Below, piece after piece: positions 30,447-41,076 of a DNA stretch of 64,000 nt. The stretch's first letter is position 1. Each line of letters begins with the position of its first letter. Below the pieces are notes generated by a model. That model did not search any database, was not told the DNA's origin, and saw only the letters and a program-made list of their open reading frames with translations. The stretch lies in assembly GCF_014490745.1 (NCBI RefSeq), contig NZ_LZEU01000001.1, positions 4,885,306-4,949,305 of the forward strand. The letters are read 5' to 3'. The position numbers and the translations under genes were made by a program. Origin of the DNA: Pseudomonas alcaligenes (GTDB lineage: Bacteria > Pseudomonadota > Gammaproteobacteria > Pseudomonadales > Pseudomonadaceae).

Positions 30447-31220
30447 ATGACGACAGTGCAGGCCATCAGAACCTTCTTCTTCTACCTGCTGCTGTCATCC
30501 AGCTCCTTCTTCTGGTGCATCCTCTGCGTGTTCGTCGCACCGCTGCTGCCGTTTCGCGCCCGCTACCGTTTCGTCATCCAGACCTGGTGCCGCTGCGCCA
30601 CCTGGCTGGCCAAGGTGGTAGTGGGCATCCGCTATGAGGTGCACGGCCTGGAGAACATCCCGCAGCAACCCTGCGTGATCCTGGCCAAGCACCAGAGCAC
30701 CTGGGAAACCTTCTTCCTTTCCGCCTTCTTCGAGCCGCTGTCGCAGGTGGTCAAGCGCGAGCTGCTGTACGTGCCGTTCTTCGGCTGGGCAATGGCCATG
30801 CTCAAGCCCATCGCCATCGACCGCAGCAATCCCAAGGCAGCGCTCAAGCAGTTGGCCAAGCAGGGCGACGAGCGCATCAAGCAGGGCGCCTGGGTACTGA
30901 TCTTCCCGGAAGGCACGCGTATTCCACCGGGGCAGATCGGCAAGTTCTCCCGCGGCGGCGCCGCCCTGGCGGTGAATGCCGGCCTGCCGGTGCTGCCGAT
31001 CGCCCACAACGCCGGCGAGTTCTGGCCGAAGCAGGGCTGGGCAAAATTCCCCGGCACCATCCAGGTGGTGATCGGCCCACTGATGCATGCCGAGGGCAGC
31101 GGCCCGCGAGCCATCGCCGAACTCAACGAGCGCGCGTTTGCCTGGGTCTGCCAGACCCAGCAGCAGATCAGCGGCGCTGCCGTACAGGTGAGCAGCCAGG
31201 ACATCTCCAGCCCGGCCTGA
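30447..31220 (+). CDS. 1-acyl-sn-glycerol-3-phosphate acyltransferase (PlsC family)
   Basis: A 257-residue membrane acyltransferase with an N-terminal hydrophobic segment (about 10-32), the catalytic HQSTWE motif (an HX4E variant of HX4D) and the glycerophosphate-binding FPEGTRIPPG. It makes phosphatidate from lysophosphatidate. Its position after gmhB corresponds to the acyltransferase next to gyrB in P. aeruginosa (LptA/PA0005). In this genome a second PlsC-like protein is encoded in the ynb-like cluster downstream. Confidence 0.9.
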   Translation: MTTVQAIRTFFFYLLLSSSSFFWCILCVFVAPLLPFRARYRFVIQTWCRCATWLAKVVVGIRYEVHGLENIPQQPCVILAKHQSTWETFFLSAFFEPLSQVVKRELLYVPFFGWAMAMLKPIAIDRSNPKAALKQLAKQGDERIKQGAWVLIFPEGTRIPPGQIGKFSRGGAALAVNAGLPVLPIAHNAGEFWPKQGWAKFPGTIQVVIGPLMHAEGSGPRAIAELNERAFAWVCQTQQQISGAAVQVSSQDISSPA

Positions 31221-31227
31221 GAGCGCC

Positions 31228-31236
31228 TGTGGATAA
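31228..31236 (-). other. Consensus DnaA box
   Basis: TGTGGATAA, that is TTATCCACA on the minus strand, located just after the PlsC stop codon, about 12 kb from oriC. Confidence 0.65.
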
Positions 31237-31455: not shown

Positions 31456-32079
31456 ATGCCGTCCATCTACCAGCTCAAGCCACGCTTCCAGAATCTGCTG
31501 CGTCCGGGCGTCACCCGCCTGCATGCTCGCGGCGTCACCGCCAACCAGGTGACCCTCGCCGCCGGCCTGGTCTCCGTGCTGCTCGGCGGGCTGCTGGCCC
31601 TGGGCAGCAGCCATGTCTGGCTGTTCGCCCTGCTGCCGCTGTGGATGCTGCTGCGCATGGCACTGAATGCCGTGGACGGCATGCTCGCCCGCGAATTCGG
31701 CCAGCAGTCCAAGCTCGGCGCCTACCTCAACGAACTGTGCGACGTGATCGCCGACAGCGCCCTGTACCTGCCGTTCGCCCTGCTGCCCGGGGTTTCCCCG
31801 CTGCTGGTGGTGCTGGTAGTGCTGCTGGCAGTGATCAGCGAATACGCCGGCGTGCTCGGCCCGATGATCGGCGCCACACGGCGCTACGACGGGCCCATGG
31901 GCAAGAGCGACCGCGCCTTCTGCTTCGGTGCTCTGGGTGCCGGTGTGGCGTGCGGCCTGTTGCCGTCGTCTTGGATAAACGGGCTGCTGGCAGTGATTCT
32001 GCTGTTGCTGCTGGCGACTCTGGCCAATCGCGTGCGCCAAGGCCTGGCCGAGGTAGCGCGAACCTCTCAATCGGAATAA
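31456..32079 (+). CDS. CDP-alcohol phosphatidyltransferase, YnbA-like
   Basis: A 207-residue membrane enzyme with about six hydrophobic helices. It matches YnbA of E. coli from the start (YQLKPRFQNLLRP, then TANQVTLAAGL) through the active site. The CDP-alcohol signature reads NAVDGMLAR ... GAYLNELCD: relative to the canonical D-x2-DG-x2-AR-x8-G-x3-D-x3-D, the first and third Asp are Asn, as I recall them also being in E. coli YnbA. It would transfer a phosphatidyl group from CDP-diacylglycerol to an unknown alcohol. First gene of a six-gene cluster; ATG 31456 follows AAAGGGA. Confidence 0.85.
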   Translation: MPSIYQLKPRFQNLLRPGVTRLHARGVTANQVTLAAGLVSVLLGGLLALGSSHVWLFALLPLWMLLRMALNAVDGMLAREFGQQSKLGAYLNELCDVIADSALYLPFALLPGVSPLLVVLVVLLAVISEYAGVLGPMIGATRRYDGPMGKSDRAFCFGALGAGVACGLLPSSWINGLLAVILLLLLATLANRVRQGLAEVARTSQSE

Positions 32080-32089
32080 GGATGTTTCG

Positions 32090-33844
32090 ATGCGCGAAGT
32101 CCAGAACCACATCTTCACCACCCACGATGGTGTCGAGCTGCTCTATCGCCACTGGCCGGCCAGCGCGCCGGCAAACGGCCCGCGCCAGGCGGTAGTGCTG
32201 TTCCACCGCGGCCACGAGCACGGCGGGCGCATGGCCCACCTGCCGGGCGAGCTGGATCTGCCCGACTACGACTTCTTCGCCTGGGATGCCCGCGGCCATG
32301 GCCTGTCGCCCGGCGCCCGCGGCGACAGCCCGAGCTTCGCCACCAGCGTGCGCGACGTGCAGACCTTTATCGAGCATATCAGCGCAACATACGGTATCGA
32401 ACAGACGGATATGGCCGTGCTGGCCCAGAGCGTCGGCGCCGTGGTGGTGTCGACCTGGGCCCACGACTACGCCCCGCAGATCCGCTGCCTGGTGCTCGCC
32501 TCGCCGGCGTTCAAGGTCAAACTCTACGTCCCCTTCGCCCGCCCCGGCCTCAAGCTGCTGCGCGCCTGGCGCGGCAACTTCTTCGTCAACAGCTATGTGA
32601 AGGCGCGCTTCCTCAGCCACGACCCCGAGCGCATCGCCTCGTTCGAGAACGACCCGCTGATCACCCGGCCGATCTCGGTGAATATGCTGCTGGGTCTCTA
32701 TGACGCCGCTGACCGCGTGGTGGCCGATGCCCAGGCAATCCAGATTCCGACCCAGCTGCTGATCTCCGGTGCCGACTTCGTCGTCCATCGCCAGCCGCAG
32801 GAGCAGTTCTTCGAGCGCCTGGGCAGCCTGCGCAAGGAAAAGCACATCCTCCCCGGCTTCTTCCACGACACCCTCGGCGAGCGTGATCGCGCCCATGCCC
32901 TGAGCCGCGCCCGGCGCTTTATCCTGGAGAGCTTCGCCCAGCCGGCCACGCGTCCCGCGCTGCTGGACGCCGACCGCTGCGGCTGGAGCTGCGCCGAAGC
33001 CGAGAGCCTGGCCGCGCCACTGCCGCATAACTCCCTGGGCGACCTGTACTGGCGCGCCACCCGCGCCGGCCTCAAGCTCGGCAGCGGGCTGTCCGACGGT
33101 GTGAAGCTGGGCTTCGAGACCGGCTTCGACTCCGGCAGCACCCTCGACTACGTCTATCGCAACCAGCCTTCCGGCAAATCCGCGTTGGGCCGGCTGATCG
33201 ACCAGAACTACCTCAACTCCATCGGCTGGCGCGGTATCCGCCAACGCAAGCTGCACGCCGAGGAGCTGCTGCGCCTGGCCATGGCCAAGCTGCGCGAGGC
33301 AGGCCGGGGTGTACGTATCGTCGATATCGCCGCCGGCCATGGCCGCTACATTCTCGAATCCCTCGAAGGGCTGGAGCACAAGCCAGACTCGATCCTGCTG
33401 CGTGACTACAGCGAGATCAACGTGCGCGACGGCAGCGCGCTGATCGCGCAGAAAGGCCTGGGCGACATCGCCCGCTTCGTCAAAGGCGATGCCTTCGACA
33501 AGGCTGACCTCGCCGCGCTCGAGCCCAGGCCGAGCCTGGCGGTGGTTTCCGGCCTGTACGAGCTGTTCGGCAGCAACCAGATGGTCGGTGATTCGCTGGC
33601 CGGCCTGGCCGCAGCGGTCGAGGAGGGCGGCTACCTGATCTACACCGGCCAACCCTGGCACCCGCAGCTGGAACTGATCGCCCGCGCCCTGACCAGCCAT
33701 CGCGAAGGCCAGCCCTGGGTCATGCGCCGCCGCAGCCAGGCGGAAATGGATCAGCTGGTAGCCGCTGCCGGCTTCCGCAAGCTGGCCCAGCGCGTCGATG
33801 AATGGGGCATCTTCAGCGTAGCCCTGGCCCAGCGGGTGTCCTGA
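32090..33844 (+). CDS. Fused alpha/beta hydrolase and SAM methyltransferase, YnbC-like
   Basis: A 584-residue two-domain protein. Residues about 1-280 form an alpha/beta hydrolase (LFHRGHEHGGR, AWDARGHGLSPG, nucleophile in AQSVGA, late His in PGFFHDTLGE) and residues about 360-584 a class I methyltransferase (motif I VDIAAGHGRYILESLEG). E. coli YnbC has the same fusion. The likely role is processing and methylation of a lipid or its head group, but no substrate is known. It follows the YnbA-like gene by 10 bases and overlaps the next gene by one base. Confidence 0.85.
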   Translation: MREVQNHIFTTHDGVELLYRHWPASAPANGPRQAVVLFHRGHEHGGRMAHLPGELDLPDYDFFAWDARGHGLSPGARGDSPSFATSVRDVQTFIEHISATYGIEQTDMAVLAQSVGAVVVSTWAHDYAPQIRCLVLASPAFKVKLYVPFARPGLKLLRAWRGNFFVNSYVKARFLSHDPERIASFENDPLITRPISVNMLLGLYDAADRVVADAQAIQIPTQLLISGADFVVHRQPQEQFFERLGSLRKEKHILPGFFHDTLGERDRAHALSRARRFILESFAQPATRPALLDADRCGWSCAEAESLAAPLPHNSLGDLYWRATRAGLKLGSGLSDGVKLGFETGFDSGSTLDYVYRNQPSGKSALGRLIDQNYLNSIGWRGIRQRKLHAEELLRLAMAKLREAGRGVRIVDIAAGHGRYILESLEGLEHKPDSILLRDYSEINVRDGSALIAQKGLGDIARFVKGDAFDKADLAALEPRPSLAVVSGLYELFGSNQMVGDSLAGLAAAVEEGGYLIYTGQPWHPQLELIARALTSHREGQPWVMRRRSQAEMDQLVAAAGFRKLAQRVDEWGIFSVALAQRVS

Positions 33845-35199
33845 TGGACAGCGACCATACGCGCGAAACCGGGCTATGGAAGCGCGGGGTACTCTGGCTG
33901 TTGCTGCTGGCCCCGCTGTTTTTCACCAGCTACAGCTTCGCCAACTGGCTGAGCGGCCAGCGCAACGATGTCGGCAGCCTGGTATTTGCCTGGGAAAGCC
34001 ACACACCGCTGTGGCCCTGGACGATCCTGCCCTACTGGTCGATCGACCTGCTCTACGGCCTGTCCTTCCTCCTCCCGGCCAGCCGCCGGGAAATGGATCG
34101 GCATGCCCTGCGCCTGCTCAGCGTGCAGATCCTGTGTGTGGCCTGCTTTCTGCTCTGGCCGCTGCGCTTCACCTTCGAGCGCCCGGAGCTGAGCGGCTTG
34201 TTCGGCTGGATGTTCGACGTGCTGATGGGCTTCGACAAACCGTTCAACCAGGCGCCTTCGCTGCATATCGCCCTGCTGGTGGTGATCTGGACGATGTTCG
34301 CCCGGCACACCCATGGCCTGCTGTTGCGCGGCCTGCTGCACGGCTGGATGGCGCTGATCGGTCTGTCGGTGCTGACTACCTGGCAGCATCACTTCATCGA
34401 TGTGCCCACTGGAGCGCTGGCCGGCTGGCTATGCGTATGGCTGTGGCCCGTCGAGGGACGCAGTCCGCTGCAGCAGCTGCACCTCGCCCGGGATGGCAAA
34501 CGTTGGCGCCTAGCCCTGCGCTATGGGCTGGGTAGTGCCATCTGTGCGGCGCTGGCGGTCAATCTCGGTGGTGTCTGGCTGTGGCTGCTGTGGCCGTGCG
34601 CATCCCTGCTGCTGGTCGCCCTGAATTACGCGCTGCTCGGTGCCGGCGGTTTCCAGAAGCAGGCCGATGGTTCCCTGAGCGCAGCAGCCTGTTGGCTGTT
34701 TGCGCCTTATCTGGCTGGCGCCTGGCTCAACTCGCGGCTGTGGACGCGCCGGCATCCGCAGCCCGCTCAGGTCAGCCCCGGGATCTGGCTCGGGCGTCTG
34801 CCGAGCAGAACCGAAATGCAGCCCTTCGCCGCAGTGCTCGATCTGTGTGCCGAGCTGCCGCTGCGCCGTCGGGGCCAAGCCTATCGCAACGTACCGGTAC
34901 TGGATCTGACCACTCCCAGCACGGCCGACTTACACCAGGCTGCCGAAGCCATCGAGCAACTGCGTCAGCACGGCCCGCTGCTGGTCTGCTGCGCGCTTGG
35001 CTACTCGCGCAGCGCCTGCGCCGTCGCCGCCTGGCTGCTGCAGTACGGCGATTGCCAGGATGTCGACCAGGCATTGCAGCGGACTCGCCAGGCACGCCCG
35101 CAAATCGTCCTCGGCGAGGCGCACCAACAGGCCCTGGCATTGCTGCGACAGCTGCCGGAACAGCCAACCCCAGTCCATGAGGTGGCCCATGGCCTCTGA
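33844..35199 (+). CDS. PAP2 / dual-specificity phosphatase fusion, YnbD-like
   Basis: A 451-residue membrane protein. The N-terminal two thirds has several hydrophobic helices and PAP2-like motifs (NQAPSLHIALL and TWQHHFIDVPTGALAGW), and the C-terminal about 130 residues is a tyrosine/dual-specificity phosphatase domain with the P-loop CALGYSRSA (CX5R). E. coli YnbD has the same architecture. It may dephosphorylate a lipid intermediate such as phosphatidylglycerophosphate-like product. The ATG overlaps the previous stop (TGATG), so translation is coupled. Confidence 0.85.
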   Translation: MDSDHTRETGLWKRGVLWLLLLAPLFFTSYSFANWLSGQRNDVGSLVFAWESHTPLWPWTILPYWSIDLLYGLSFLLPASRREMDRHALRLLSVQILCVACFLLWPLRFTFERPELSGLFGWMFDVLMGFDKPFNQAPSLHIALLVVIWTMFARHTHGLLLRGLLHGWMALIGLSVLTTWQHHFIDVPTGALAGWLCVWLWPVEGRSPLQQLHLARDGKRWRLALRYGLGSAICAALAVNLGGVWLWLLWPCASLLLVALNYALLGAGGFQKQADGSLSAAACWLFAPYLAGAWLNSRLWTRRHPQPAQVSPGIWLGRLPSRTEMQPFAAVLDLCAELPLRRRGQAYRNVPVLDLTTPSTADLHQAAEAIEQLRQHGPLLVCCALGYSRSACAVAAWLLQYGDCQDVDQALQRTRQARPQIVLGEAHQQALALLRQLPEQPTPVHEVAHGL

Positions 35200-35644
35200 G
35201 ATGTCCCTGCTGCTGATCGCCGGCCTGCTGCGCCGCGGTCGCCAGCTCGACCAGCTGTCCACCGGGCTGACCCTGCTGGGTCTGGCTGGGGGCTTGCTGC
35301 CCATGCTGATCGGGCGTGGCAACTTTCTGATGGCCGGGCCCTGCGTGCTGCTGATTCTGTTCGGCCTGGCGCAGAAGTACTGGGCGATCCGCTCGGCCCT
35401 GGACGCCGAGTTGTTCGCCGTCCTGGCAGCTGATCCGCTACAGCGCGAGGCACGTATAGCCGAACTCGATAGCGCCCTGGTCGAGCTGCGCCTGCAGCCC
35501 GCCAACCAGACTGCCCGTCCATGGGAGGCACGCATTCGCGGCGCCCGCCGCCTGCTGCGCATGCAGGGCCTGTGGCTGGCCGCGCAACTGTTACTGGCAC
35601 TGATCATGATCCTGGTCGTGCCGTGGTTTTCCTTCGCTGGATAA
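35189..35644 (+). CDS. Small membrane protein of the ynb-like cluster
   Basis: A 151-residue protein that I do not assign to a family. It has three likely membrane helices: about 24-39 and 41-60 (LTLLGLAGGLLPML, MAGPCVLLILFGLA) and a C-terminal one at about 128-147 (AAQLLLALIMILVV), with a charged soluble stretch between. ATG 35189 is chosen because GAGGTGG lies just upstream; it overlaps the YnbD-like gene by 11 bases. It is not part of the E. coli ynb operon, so it is a cluster-specific accessory here. Confidence 0.7.
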   Translation: MASEMSLLLIAGLLRRGRQLDQLSTGLTLLGLAGGLLPMLIGRGNFLMAGPCVLLILFGLAQKYWAIRSALDAELFAVLAADPLQREARIAELDSALVELRLQPANQTARPWEARIRGARRLLRMQGLWLAAQLLLALIMILVVPWFSFAG

Positions 35645-35654
35645 GGAGTTGTCC

Positions 35655-36278
35655 ATGCTCGCTTCATTGACCGCTTTCGCCATTACCTCGGCGGCGCGTC
35701 TGCTTACCGGAGCCCGCGCGCTCTGGCTGGGCAGCACAGCGCAGCCGGTGCAACGGCTGTATTACGCCAACCACAGCAGCCACGGCGACTTCGTCCTGTT
35801 GTGGGCCTCGCTGCCGGCCGAACTGCGCCGCAGCACCCGTCCGGTGGCTGGCGCCGACTACTGGCAGAAGGGCGGCCTGCGCAGCTTCCTGATCAACGAT
35901 GTGTTCAACGGCGTGCTGGTCGACCGTGACCGCAGCAATCCGGAGCACAACCCGCTGCAGCCGATGCTCGACGCGCTGGGGCAGGGCGACTCGCTGATCA
36001 TCTTCCCCGAAGGCACGCGCAACCTCGGCGACGACCCGCTGCTGCCGTTCAAGAGCGGTCTCTACCACCTGGCCCAGGCTCATCCACAGGCCGAGCTGAT
36101 CCCGGTGTGGATCGCCAACCTCAACCGCGTAATGCCCAAGGGCAGGGCGCTGCCCCTGCCGCTGCTGTGCACCCTGAGTTTCGGCGCCGCCCTGGAACCC
36201 GTCGAGGGGGAAGGCAAAGCCGCGTTCCTCGAGCGCGCACGCAACGCCCTGCTGGCCCTGGCCCCGGAGGAAGTCTGA
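35655..36278 (+). CDS. Lysophospholipid acyltransferase-like protein
   Basis: A 207-residue PlsC-fold protein with the catalytic HSSHGD (HX4D) and the FPEGTRNLGDDPLLPFK phosphate-binding motif. AAGGAG at 35643-35648 fixes ATG 35655. It has no long N-terminal membrane anchor, unlike the PlsC protein encoded at 30447. Located between the small membrane protein and the YnbB-like gene with gaps of 10 and 1 bases, so it is part of the same operon. It probably acylates an intermediate of the lipid made by this cluster. Confidence 0.85.
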   Translation: MLASLTAFAITSAARLLTGARALWLGSTAQPVQRLYYANHSSHGDFVLLWASLPAELRRSTRPVAGADYWQKGGLRSFLINDVFNGVLVDRDRSNPEHNPLQPMLDALGQGDSLIIFPEGTRNLGDDPLLPFKSGLYHLAQAHPQAELIPVWIANLNRVMPKGRALPLPLLCTLSFGAALEPVEGEGKAAFLERARNALLALAPEEV

Positions 36279-36279
36279 G

Positions 36280-37212
36280 ATGGATCGCAATACCCTGCTG
36301 CTGTTCGCCGGTATCGGCGCCATTCTGCTGCTGGCCAGCCTGATCGGTCGCGTACTCAAGCGCCGCGCTGGCGATACGCCCAACTCGGTGATCGACAACC
36401 TCAATGCCCGCATCGATGCCTGGTGGGTGATGGTGCTGGTGATCGGCATCGCCTTTATGTTCGGCAAGAACGGCGTGGTGCTGCTGTTCTACGGCGTGTC
36501 CTTCTACGCCCTGCGCGAGTTCATGACCCTGACCCCGACCCGGCGCAGCGACTATCCGGCGCTGGTAGCCGCCTTCTACTTCGCCCTGCCGATGCAGTAC
36601 CTGCTGATCGCCATCGGCTGGTATGGCCTGTTCAGCATCTTCATCCCGGTCTATTTGTTCCTTCTGCTGCCGATTCTCGCCTCGCTCGGCGGCGATACTA
36701 CCCGCTACCTGGAGCGGGCGGCCAAGGTGCAGTGGGGCCTGATGATCGCGGTGTACTGCGTGTCCATGGTGCCGGCGCTGCTGACCCTGGAGATTCCAGG
36801 CTATGAGGGGCGCAACCTGCTGCTGATCGCCTGGCTGATCATCGTCGTGCAGCTCTCGGACGTGCTGCAGTACGTCTGCGGCAAGCTGGCCGGCAAGCAC
36901 AAGATCGCCCCCAAGCTGTCGCCCTCGAAGACGGTGGAAGGCTTCGTCGGTGGTGTGGCACTGGCGACTCTGGTCGGTGCGCTGCTGTGCTGGATCACCC
37001 CGTTCAACTTCTGGCAGGCCGCGCTGATGGCGCTGACCGTCAACCTGCTGGGCTTTGCCGGTGGCCTGGTGATGTCGGCGATCAAGCGCGACCGCGGAGT
37101 GAAGGACTGGGGCCACATGATCGAAGGCCACGGCGGTATGCTCGACCGCATGGACTCGGTGTGCTTCGCCGCACCGATCTTCTTCCACTTCGTACGCTAC
37201 TGGTGGGCCTGA
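36280..37212 (+). CDS. CDP-diacylglycerol synthase-like protein, YnbB-like
   Basis: A 310-residue polytopic membrane protein of the CdsA family. The family signature is complete near the C terminus (SAIKRDRGVKDWGHMIEGHGG), so it should activate phosphatidic acid with CTP. It is a CdsA paralogue; the E. coli counterpart YnbB has been linked in the literature to MPIase glycolipid synthesis, which I cite from memory. It ends the cluster, starting one base after the acyltransferase stop, and is followed by a terminator at 37313-37338. Confidence 0.87.
   Translation: MDRNTLLLFAGIGAILLLASLIGRVLKRRAGDTPNSVIDNLNARIDAWWVMVLVIGIAFMFGKNGVVLLFYGVSFYALREFMTLTPTRRSDYPALVAAFYFALPMQYLLIAIGWYGLFSIFIPVYLFLLLPILASLGGDTTRYLERAAKVQWGLMIAVYCVSMVPALLTLEIPGYEGRNLLLIAWLIIVVQLSDVLQYVCGKLAGKHKIAPKLSPSKTVEGFVGGVALATLVGALLCWITPFNFWQAALMALTVNLLGFAGGLVMSAIKRDRGVKDWGHMIEGHGGMLDRMDSVCFAAPIFFHFVRYWWA

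Positions 37213-37555: not shown

Positions 37556-41076
<3,521 letters not shown>

Follow-up and report, generated by a model that had tools for sequence, protein, structure and literature searches.

What does a second, tightly packed set of phospholipid enzymes make in Pseudomonas alcaligenes? The question is raised by six genes in a 64,000-nt stretch of contig NZ_LZEU01000001.1 (hereafter the window, to which the coordinates of the block refer), part of a genome of 4.97 Mb in 3 contigs. An earlier sequence-only reading of this DNA had described six adjacent plus-strand open reading frames (ORFs) related to Escherichia coli ynbABCD and had proposed that they encode a complete lipid pathway. 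The observation is confirmed as real: the ORFs lie at 31456-37212, with gaps of 1-10 bases and overlaps of 1-11 bases (1 base for ynbC/ynbD, 11 bases for ynbD/X), and four of the proteins are clear homologues of E. coli YnbA, YnbB, YnbC and YnbD (49, 38, 58 and 43% identity, respectively; Table 1). On balance, the block probably encodes a second, dedicated line for phospholipid assembly, to which a removable tailoring cassette is added.

Table 1. Genes of the ynb block and of its surroundings in the window
Feature	Position	Strand	Description
plsC1	30447-31220	+	PlsC-like, PF01553 97.7 bits; left boundary, outside block
ynbA	31456-32079	+	207 aa, CDP-alcohol phosphotransferase-fold membrane protein; Pfam PF01066 31.6 bits; core gene
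ynbC	32090-33844	+	monoglyceride-lipase-like alpha/beta hydrolase fused to PF12147 methyltransferase; cassette gene
ynbD	33844-35199	+	PAP2-like membrane domain fused to dual-specificity phosphatase domain; cassette gene
X	35189-35644	+	151 aa, hydrophobic stretches, directly 3' of ynbD; cassette gene
plsC2	35655-36278	+	short PlsC-fold acyltransferase; PF01553 61.2 bits; core gene
ynbB (cdsA2)	36280-37212	+	second CDP-diacylglycerol synthase-type protein; PF01148 239.9 bits; core gene
gyrB	37556-39979	-	ORF and translation; convergent right-hand neighbour, outside block
dnaA	42219-43670		ORF

The domains named in the sequence-only reading were recovered with Pfam and NCBIfam, weakly so for the PAP2 part of YnbD, and its second CDP-diacylglycerol (CDP-DAG) synthase-type protein, PlsC-fold protein and unrecognised small membrane protein also held up. 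The start of plsC2 is an ATG, with a TTG at 35649 as a possible alternative. Besides YnbA, the genome encodes two other CDP-alcohol phosphotransferase-family proteins, and YnbB has one CdsA-type counterpart elsewhere in the genome; the block thus adds to functions that are already there.

The six-gene order was searched for across pseudomonads, as had been suggested for this locus, using the best 80 of 482 YnbC relatives in named genomes, all 80 of them Pseudomonas. All six genes occurred in the order of the window in 80/80 fetched loci, and the block is therefore not a product of chance. Within the genus sample of 249 genomes, the YnbC methyltransferase family was matched in 133 (one, G027, just at the threshold) and the YnbA profile in 143 (139 strong and 4 weaker matches). 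The 132 genomes with a strong YnbC all had a strong YnbA as well, and a further 7 had a strong YnbA without YnbC. In the class sample, the YnbC family was found in 16/369 genomes at E 0.001 or better (10 strong) and the YnbA profile in 29/369, 19 of these at 146 bits or more, the weakest of the 19 being a partial match at a contig end. The phylum sample gave 49/398 genomes with the YnbA profile, 37 at 166 bits or more and 12 weaker. PF12147 as a marker undercounts the system, with 10 strong genomes in the class sample versus 19 by the YnbA profile; the homologue search with the latter returned at least 8000 candidates. Two irregular loci were seen: in one congener (G078; L116 5550-8939) ynbD is interrupted by ~2 kb of intervening DNA, and in another locus (L058 14662) a second ynbB-like stretch of 66% identity lies 3' of the six-gene block.

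The block is modular rather than one fixed six-gene pathway, consisting of a core, ynbA-plsC2-ynbB, and a frequently missing C-D-X part. In all 7 Pseudomonas genomes with a strong YnbA and no YnbC (L148, L149, L151, L153, L154, L260 and L261), ynbA-plsC2-ynbB lies beside plsC1, and all 7 have a plsC2 with HX4D and FPEGTR, a ynbB with the CdsA signature and a YnbA with the Asn-Asp-Asn-Asp motif discussed below. Outside the genus, A-B-PlsC without YnbC was found in 13 fetched loci (L224, L225, L227-L230, L234-L236, L240, L241, L243 and L255, the last cut by the contig end), and the A-C-D-X-PlsC-B order in L106, L231, L232, L238, L242, L244 and L245. Other arrangements with YnbC occur in L107, L233, L237 and L247, YnbC without YnbD in the fetched stretch in L108, L110, L113 and L239, and YnbC plus YnbD without X in L111, L112 and E. 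coli; excluded from the locus counts were L109 (a contig without YnbA), L114 and L226 (short contigs), and L246 and L254 (an odd or broken YnbA only). The parts are nested, in that X was found solely with YnbD and YnbD solely with YnbC in the fetched loci. The sequence-only reading was right in its four Ynb homologies and needs revision where it draws a single path through all six genes. In L113 and L108 the Ynb genes have a SnoaL-like neighbour, and L113 and L114 encode a PEMT/ICMT-like membrane methyltransferase (regions L113 8346-9469, L114 762-1352 and L108 11528-12121); these are possibly alternative tailoring genes.

The history of the C-D-X part was approached with a quickly built tree of 67 YnbA sequences, the rows of which include 18 of the 80 named loci and, under the without-C label, some odd or broken sequences (L246, L254) and members of a distant family (L248-L253). 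The tree needed 12 changes between with-C and without-C labels, at least 7 of them forced by starred branches, and the core-only pseudomonads fell among the six-gene ones, with long-branch warnings. In 5/7 core-only genomes (L149, L151, L153, L154 and L261), the spacer between ynbA and plsC2 resembled the start region of a relative's ynbC better than 100 shuffles, in a comparison with six references per spacer that is uncorrected for multiple tries; of two near references, the L154 spacer outscored its shuffles clearly with one but by just a single point with the other. By the same shuffle comparison, the L148 and L260 spacers had no left-hand ynbC remnant. Resemblance on the right-hand side is less telling, as plsC2 requires its ribosome site anyway. 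Because the core-only genomes scatter among six-gene relatives and five of their seven spacers resemble the ynbC start, the simplest reading is that C-D-X was probably deleted several times in Pseudomonas with the core staying intact; an inserted cassette was weighed as the alternative and is disfavoured on the same two grounds.

The core enzyme that sets the block apart is YnbA, whose two signature Asn replacements were absent from the earlier account. The protein passes the PF01066 cut-off (31.6 versus 22 bits), and its motif reads N71-x2-D74-G-x2-A-R-x8-G-x3-N92-x3-D96. In PMC4634129, the eight residues of the CDP-alcohol phosphotransferase signature, D1xxD2G1xxAR...G2xxxD3xxxD4, are called absolutely conserved, with D1-D3 holding metal and D4 the likely base; in an alternative account, all four Asp hold two metals (PMC6506517). 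YnbA departs from this signature, with Asn at D1 and D3 in 98/98 tblastn matches. The other six residues are kept in these matches, which include a few overlaps with the window or with each other, the Arg being Lys in 2. Counted per locus, the Asn-Asp-Asn-Asp motif is present in 80/80 named loci and in 42/44 other loci with YnbA, the two exceptions being truncated (L255) and divergent (L246), and E. coli YnbA likewise has it. All four Asp are present in the genome's two other family members, which by eye we take to be PgsA-like and PssA-like, and in three distinct aligned structures (four alignments, two of them near-identical).

The rest of the YnbA site has been retained. Asp2, Asp4 and both Gly are kept in all aligned members, and N30, T33 and D96 are invariant in 20 aligned sequences, which preserves Asp4 as the base and the (D/N)xx(T/S) part of the published cytidine contact, P(D/N)xx(T/S) (PMC4634129); the Pro of that motif is not kept. 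Given this invariance of the two Asn, and with Asp2, Asp4, the Gly pair and the N-x2-T contact conserved, the change is old and maintained rather than a sign of decay. YnbA is homologous to CDP-alcohol phosphotransferases and may work like one, without being a canonical member. Members of the distant family L248-L253 (41-48 bits) have Asn at both sites in 6/6 cases and have lost the signature Arg; their genes adjoin PlsC and CdsA-type genes in 5/6 loci (L248 and L250-L253), no such neighbour having been seen in the L249 locus. These five relatives suggest that the two-Asn design is older than the Ynb family. We advance, as a tentative idea that could well prove wrong, that YnbA founds a distinct two-Asp/two-Asn phosphotransferase class which, with PlsC and CdsA-type partners, would make an undescribed class of phospholipid in Pseudomonadota, E. 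coli K-12 included.

Two further kinds of YnbA-like protein were encountered. In four Pseudomonas genomes (L256-L259, at 8.1-8.9 kb in each), a YnbA-like protein that is also without Asp2 and Asp4 is encoded in a conserved cluster and looks like a true pseudoenzyme; its neighbours in L258 are a disulphide oxidoreductase, three SPFH/Band 7 proteins, a P-type ATPase and a cyclopropane synthase-like gene. In L246 (9420-10064), a divergent YnbA-like gene lies beside a cytidylyltransferase-like gene (PF01467), an arrangement that might point to a different activated donor.

The remaining proteins were checked against PAP2, PlsC and CdsA motifs that we take to be characteristic of those families. 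PlsC2 has the motifs of a PlsC-type acyltransferase, HX4D and FPEGTR being kept in 87/87 loci with one T to S change, and the C-terminal CdsA signature of YnbB, KR(D)...KD...GHGG..DR.D, is complete and kept, the alignment covering 91/92 loci. YnbC matches PF12146 (Hydrolase_4, 235.9 bits) and PF12147 (Methyltransf_20, 509 bits); its hydrolase part matches monoacylglycerol lipases, Ser114, Asp229 and His259 are kept in 93/93 loci together with most methyltransferase motif residues, and the two solved structures found with the methyltransferase profile are both distant. In YnbD, the dual-specificity phosphatase domain is well supported (DSPc, 54 bits), with the C-x5-R site (Cys383/Arg389) in 88/89 loci and outside the alignment in the other. 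Its PAP2_3 match, at 17.7 bits, is below the cut-off of 27; His141, His182 and Asp186 are kept in 89/89 loci, and of the usual PAP2 motifs (K-x6-RP, PSGH, H-x3-D) the R-P, a PSLH and the H-x3-D are kept, the Lys and Gly being absent. X matched no Pfam or NCBIfam family. It is a conserved family with 102 homologues, with hydrophobic stretches and a conserved R-x-A-x-D-A core, and it lies beside or after ynbD in 12 fetched loci outside Pseudomonas, so the family reaches beyond that genus.

Gene content and order, the conservation of catalytic residues, the separability of core and cassette and the invariant YnbA centre are direct observations around which a pathway can be drawn; its individual reactions and their order we infer from the chemistry of the families. 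PlsC2 would acylate a lyso-phospholipid acceptor to phosphatidic acid or a close analogue, which YnbB would convert with CTP into a CDP-lipid. Formation of CDP-DAG from phosphatidic acid and CTP has been reported for E. coli YnbB, according to a review (PMC7018664). YnbA would then transfer the phosphatidyl moiety to a small, polar and perhaps phosphate-bearing acceptor. The product could optionally be trimmed and methylated by YnbD, through its PAP2-like and dual-specificity phosphatase domains, and by YnbC, through its esterase and methyltransferase, with X as a putative small membrane partner of YnbD. The sequence-only reading had placed dephosphorylation before methylation or hydrolysis, an order that no observation supports.

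Several points weigh against such a second phospholipid line. Neither a strong YnbA nor a strong YnbC was found in 110/249 genus genomes, and the product is therefore dispensable. The cluster-borne acyltransferase is not obligatory, plsC2 being absent from E. coli and some other loci. YnbA's missing Asp pair could mean that there is no transferase activity, and relatives with a lost active site do exist (L256-L259). For E. coli, published work describes YnbD as having no assigned function and as failing to complement the loss of undecaprenyl pyrophosphate (C55-PP) or phosphatidylglycerophosphate phosphatase (PMC7413402), and YnbB as a CdsA paralogue that did not replace CdsA for bulk phospholipid (PMC6362211). 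By analogy, YnbB may serve a pyrophosphate glycolipid instead, in which case the block would feed a glycolipid of the MPIase type: YnbB, perhaps with YnbA, would make a sugar-pyrophosphate-diacylglycerol such as N-acetylglucosamine-pyrophosphate-diacylglycerol from CDP-DAG, and C, D and X would modify or recycle it. In keeping with this, overproduction of E. coli YnbB raised MPIase (PMC6362211), ynbB was one of five genes in which transposon insertions were depleted in an E. coli strain whose enterobacterial common antigen (ECA) was all of the phosphoglyceride-linked form (PMC8609368), and a phosphate nucleophile might fit the altered metal centre of YnbA better than an alcohol. Yet the same papers report that a ynbB knockout left MPIase unchanged (PMC6362211) and that ynbB was not required for phosphoglyceride-linked ECA (PMC8609368), while Asp4, the residue proposed to act as base towards an alcohol, is retained in YnbA, and no glycosyltransferase was recognised among 20 annotated neighbouring ORFs (a selection). 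We regard this explanation as improbable.

YnbA might instead be catalytically dead, a subunit binding lipid or CDP-lipid, with plsC2, YnbB and the cassette remodelling or turning over existing phospholipids. Two of the four metal Asp are missing in every full member, and the related family in four Pseudomonas genomes has lost Asp2 and Asp4 too, but the Asn residues show no drift, and the retention of Asp2, Asp4, the two Gly and the residues contacting cytidine is unlike what decay would leave; a dead YnbA would also leave the CDP-DAG made by YnbB without a consumer in the block, and we think the idea unlikely. A product of another kind is raised by the closest relatives of YnbA, which could be a phosphatidylinositol-phosphate-type synthase with YnbD as the phosphatase finishing phosphatidylinositol. 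The best NCBIfam neighbours of YnbA are archaetidylinositol-phosphate and phosphatidylinositol-phosphate synthases (66.6 and 45 bits, below the cut-offs of 180 and 170), its best PDB relative is the CDP-DAG-inositol phosphatidyltransferase 6h53 (E 3e-4), and a dual-specificity phosphatase is encoded alongside. Against this, the Asp signature is broken in YnbA, and a search of this genome gave no Ino1 (PF07994) match, inositol salvage not having been looked at. The Arg after Asp4 (R94 in Mycobacterium tuberculosis PgsA1) is conserved in users of inositol phosphate, according to PMC6506517, while the residue after Asp4 is Val in YnbA and Lys or Arg in 0/20 aligned sequences. With neither an Ino1 match nor the acceptor-specific Arg, phosphatidylinositol is disfavoured as the product; judging from the sequences, inositol phosphate is unlikely to be the acceptor, and we give the whole scheme very little credence. 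The second phospholipid assembly line with a removable cassette remains the reading we prefer.

Other reports on the E. coli genes concern different phenotypes. A transposon disruption of ynbC, possibly polar, led to polyphosphate accumulation in one strain background and the Keio deletion did not (PMC2435150), and ynbA is listed in a table of a cyclic di-GMP screen (PMC13031359). No name for a Ynb product was found in literature searches of open-licence PMC listings, which is no proof of absence.

The block sits between plsC1 and the convergent gyrB, as the sequence-only reading had placed it, and ~6.5 kb separate its end from the start of dnaA. The earlier figure of 6 kb from the origin holds provided that the origin is upstream of dnaA, a region with two perfect DnaA boxes (43735 and 43820). 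That the system as such is tied to the origin did not survive comparison: in 45/80 six-gene loci the fetched flank contains no plsC1 and no gyrB, and proximity to the origin was rejected as part of its function. In 34/80 loci plsC1 is within the flank, 26 of which also show gyrB, and gyrB alone is visible in 1/80, where the contig starts at ynbA. PlsC1 was present in 119/119 genus genomes searched. At 7/15 congener sites without ynb genes beside plsC1, those with gyrB within the fetched stretch, plsC1 and gyrB are 301 to 4269 bases apart; the site is therefore open to inserts of other kinds.

Perfect DnaA boxes number 8 in the window, versus 0.12 expected. One of them, TGTGGATAA at 31228-31236 (+), lies just 3' of plsC1 and upstream of ynbA, and it is kept in the window and in the 15 plsC1-linked loci, out of 34, that were aligned with it. 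A box near the end of plsC1 also occurs at 14/20 congener sites; the core is present at 5 of these 14, and the other 9 have no ynb gene. Because it is found 3' of plsC1 at sites without the block, it is not part of the block, and it was rejected as a regulatory element of these genes. A sigma-70 promoter scan of the block region found none.

An extra phospholipid enzyme set in 139/249 sampled genomes of a genus that ranks among the most thoroughly studied in bacteria, and partly in E. coli K-12, points to a membrane lipid that lipidomics may have missed or left unassigned, and these bacteria may make a lipid not yet described. The invariant Asn/Asn change poses a concrete, testable question for a protein family in which all four Asp are called absolutely conserved, and the natural core-only genomes are ready controls for separating the core product from the tailored one.

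The closest known system is ynbABCD of E. coli K-12 (NC_000913.3 1477621-1482201), where, as here, the genes for all four Ynb homologues are adjacent, with matching domain architectures. The gene order differs, being A-B-C-D in E. coli and A-C-D-X-plsC2-B here, and the E. coli region is without plsC2 and X. With the bacterial phosphatidylinositol-phosphate synthases (PDB 6h53, 5d91), YnbA shares Asp2, Asp4, Gly1, the Ala-Arg, Gly2 and the N-x2-T contact; unlike them, it has Asn for Asp1 and Asp3 and no basic residue after Asp4, and its genome is without an Ino1 match. YnbB shares the full C-terminal signature of CdsA, as in the CdsA/MPIase pathway, on which the effect of E. coli YnbB is reportedly auxiliary. 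YnbD shares the His-His-Asp set of PgpB-type PAP2 proteins but has PSLH for PSGH and no Lys of K-x6-RP, and E. coli YnbD did not take over PgpB functions in complementation. With the dual-specificity phosphatases, for which we take PTPMT1 as a suitable comparison, it shares the C-x5-R site.

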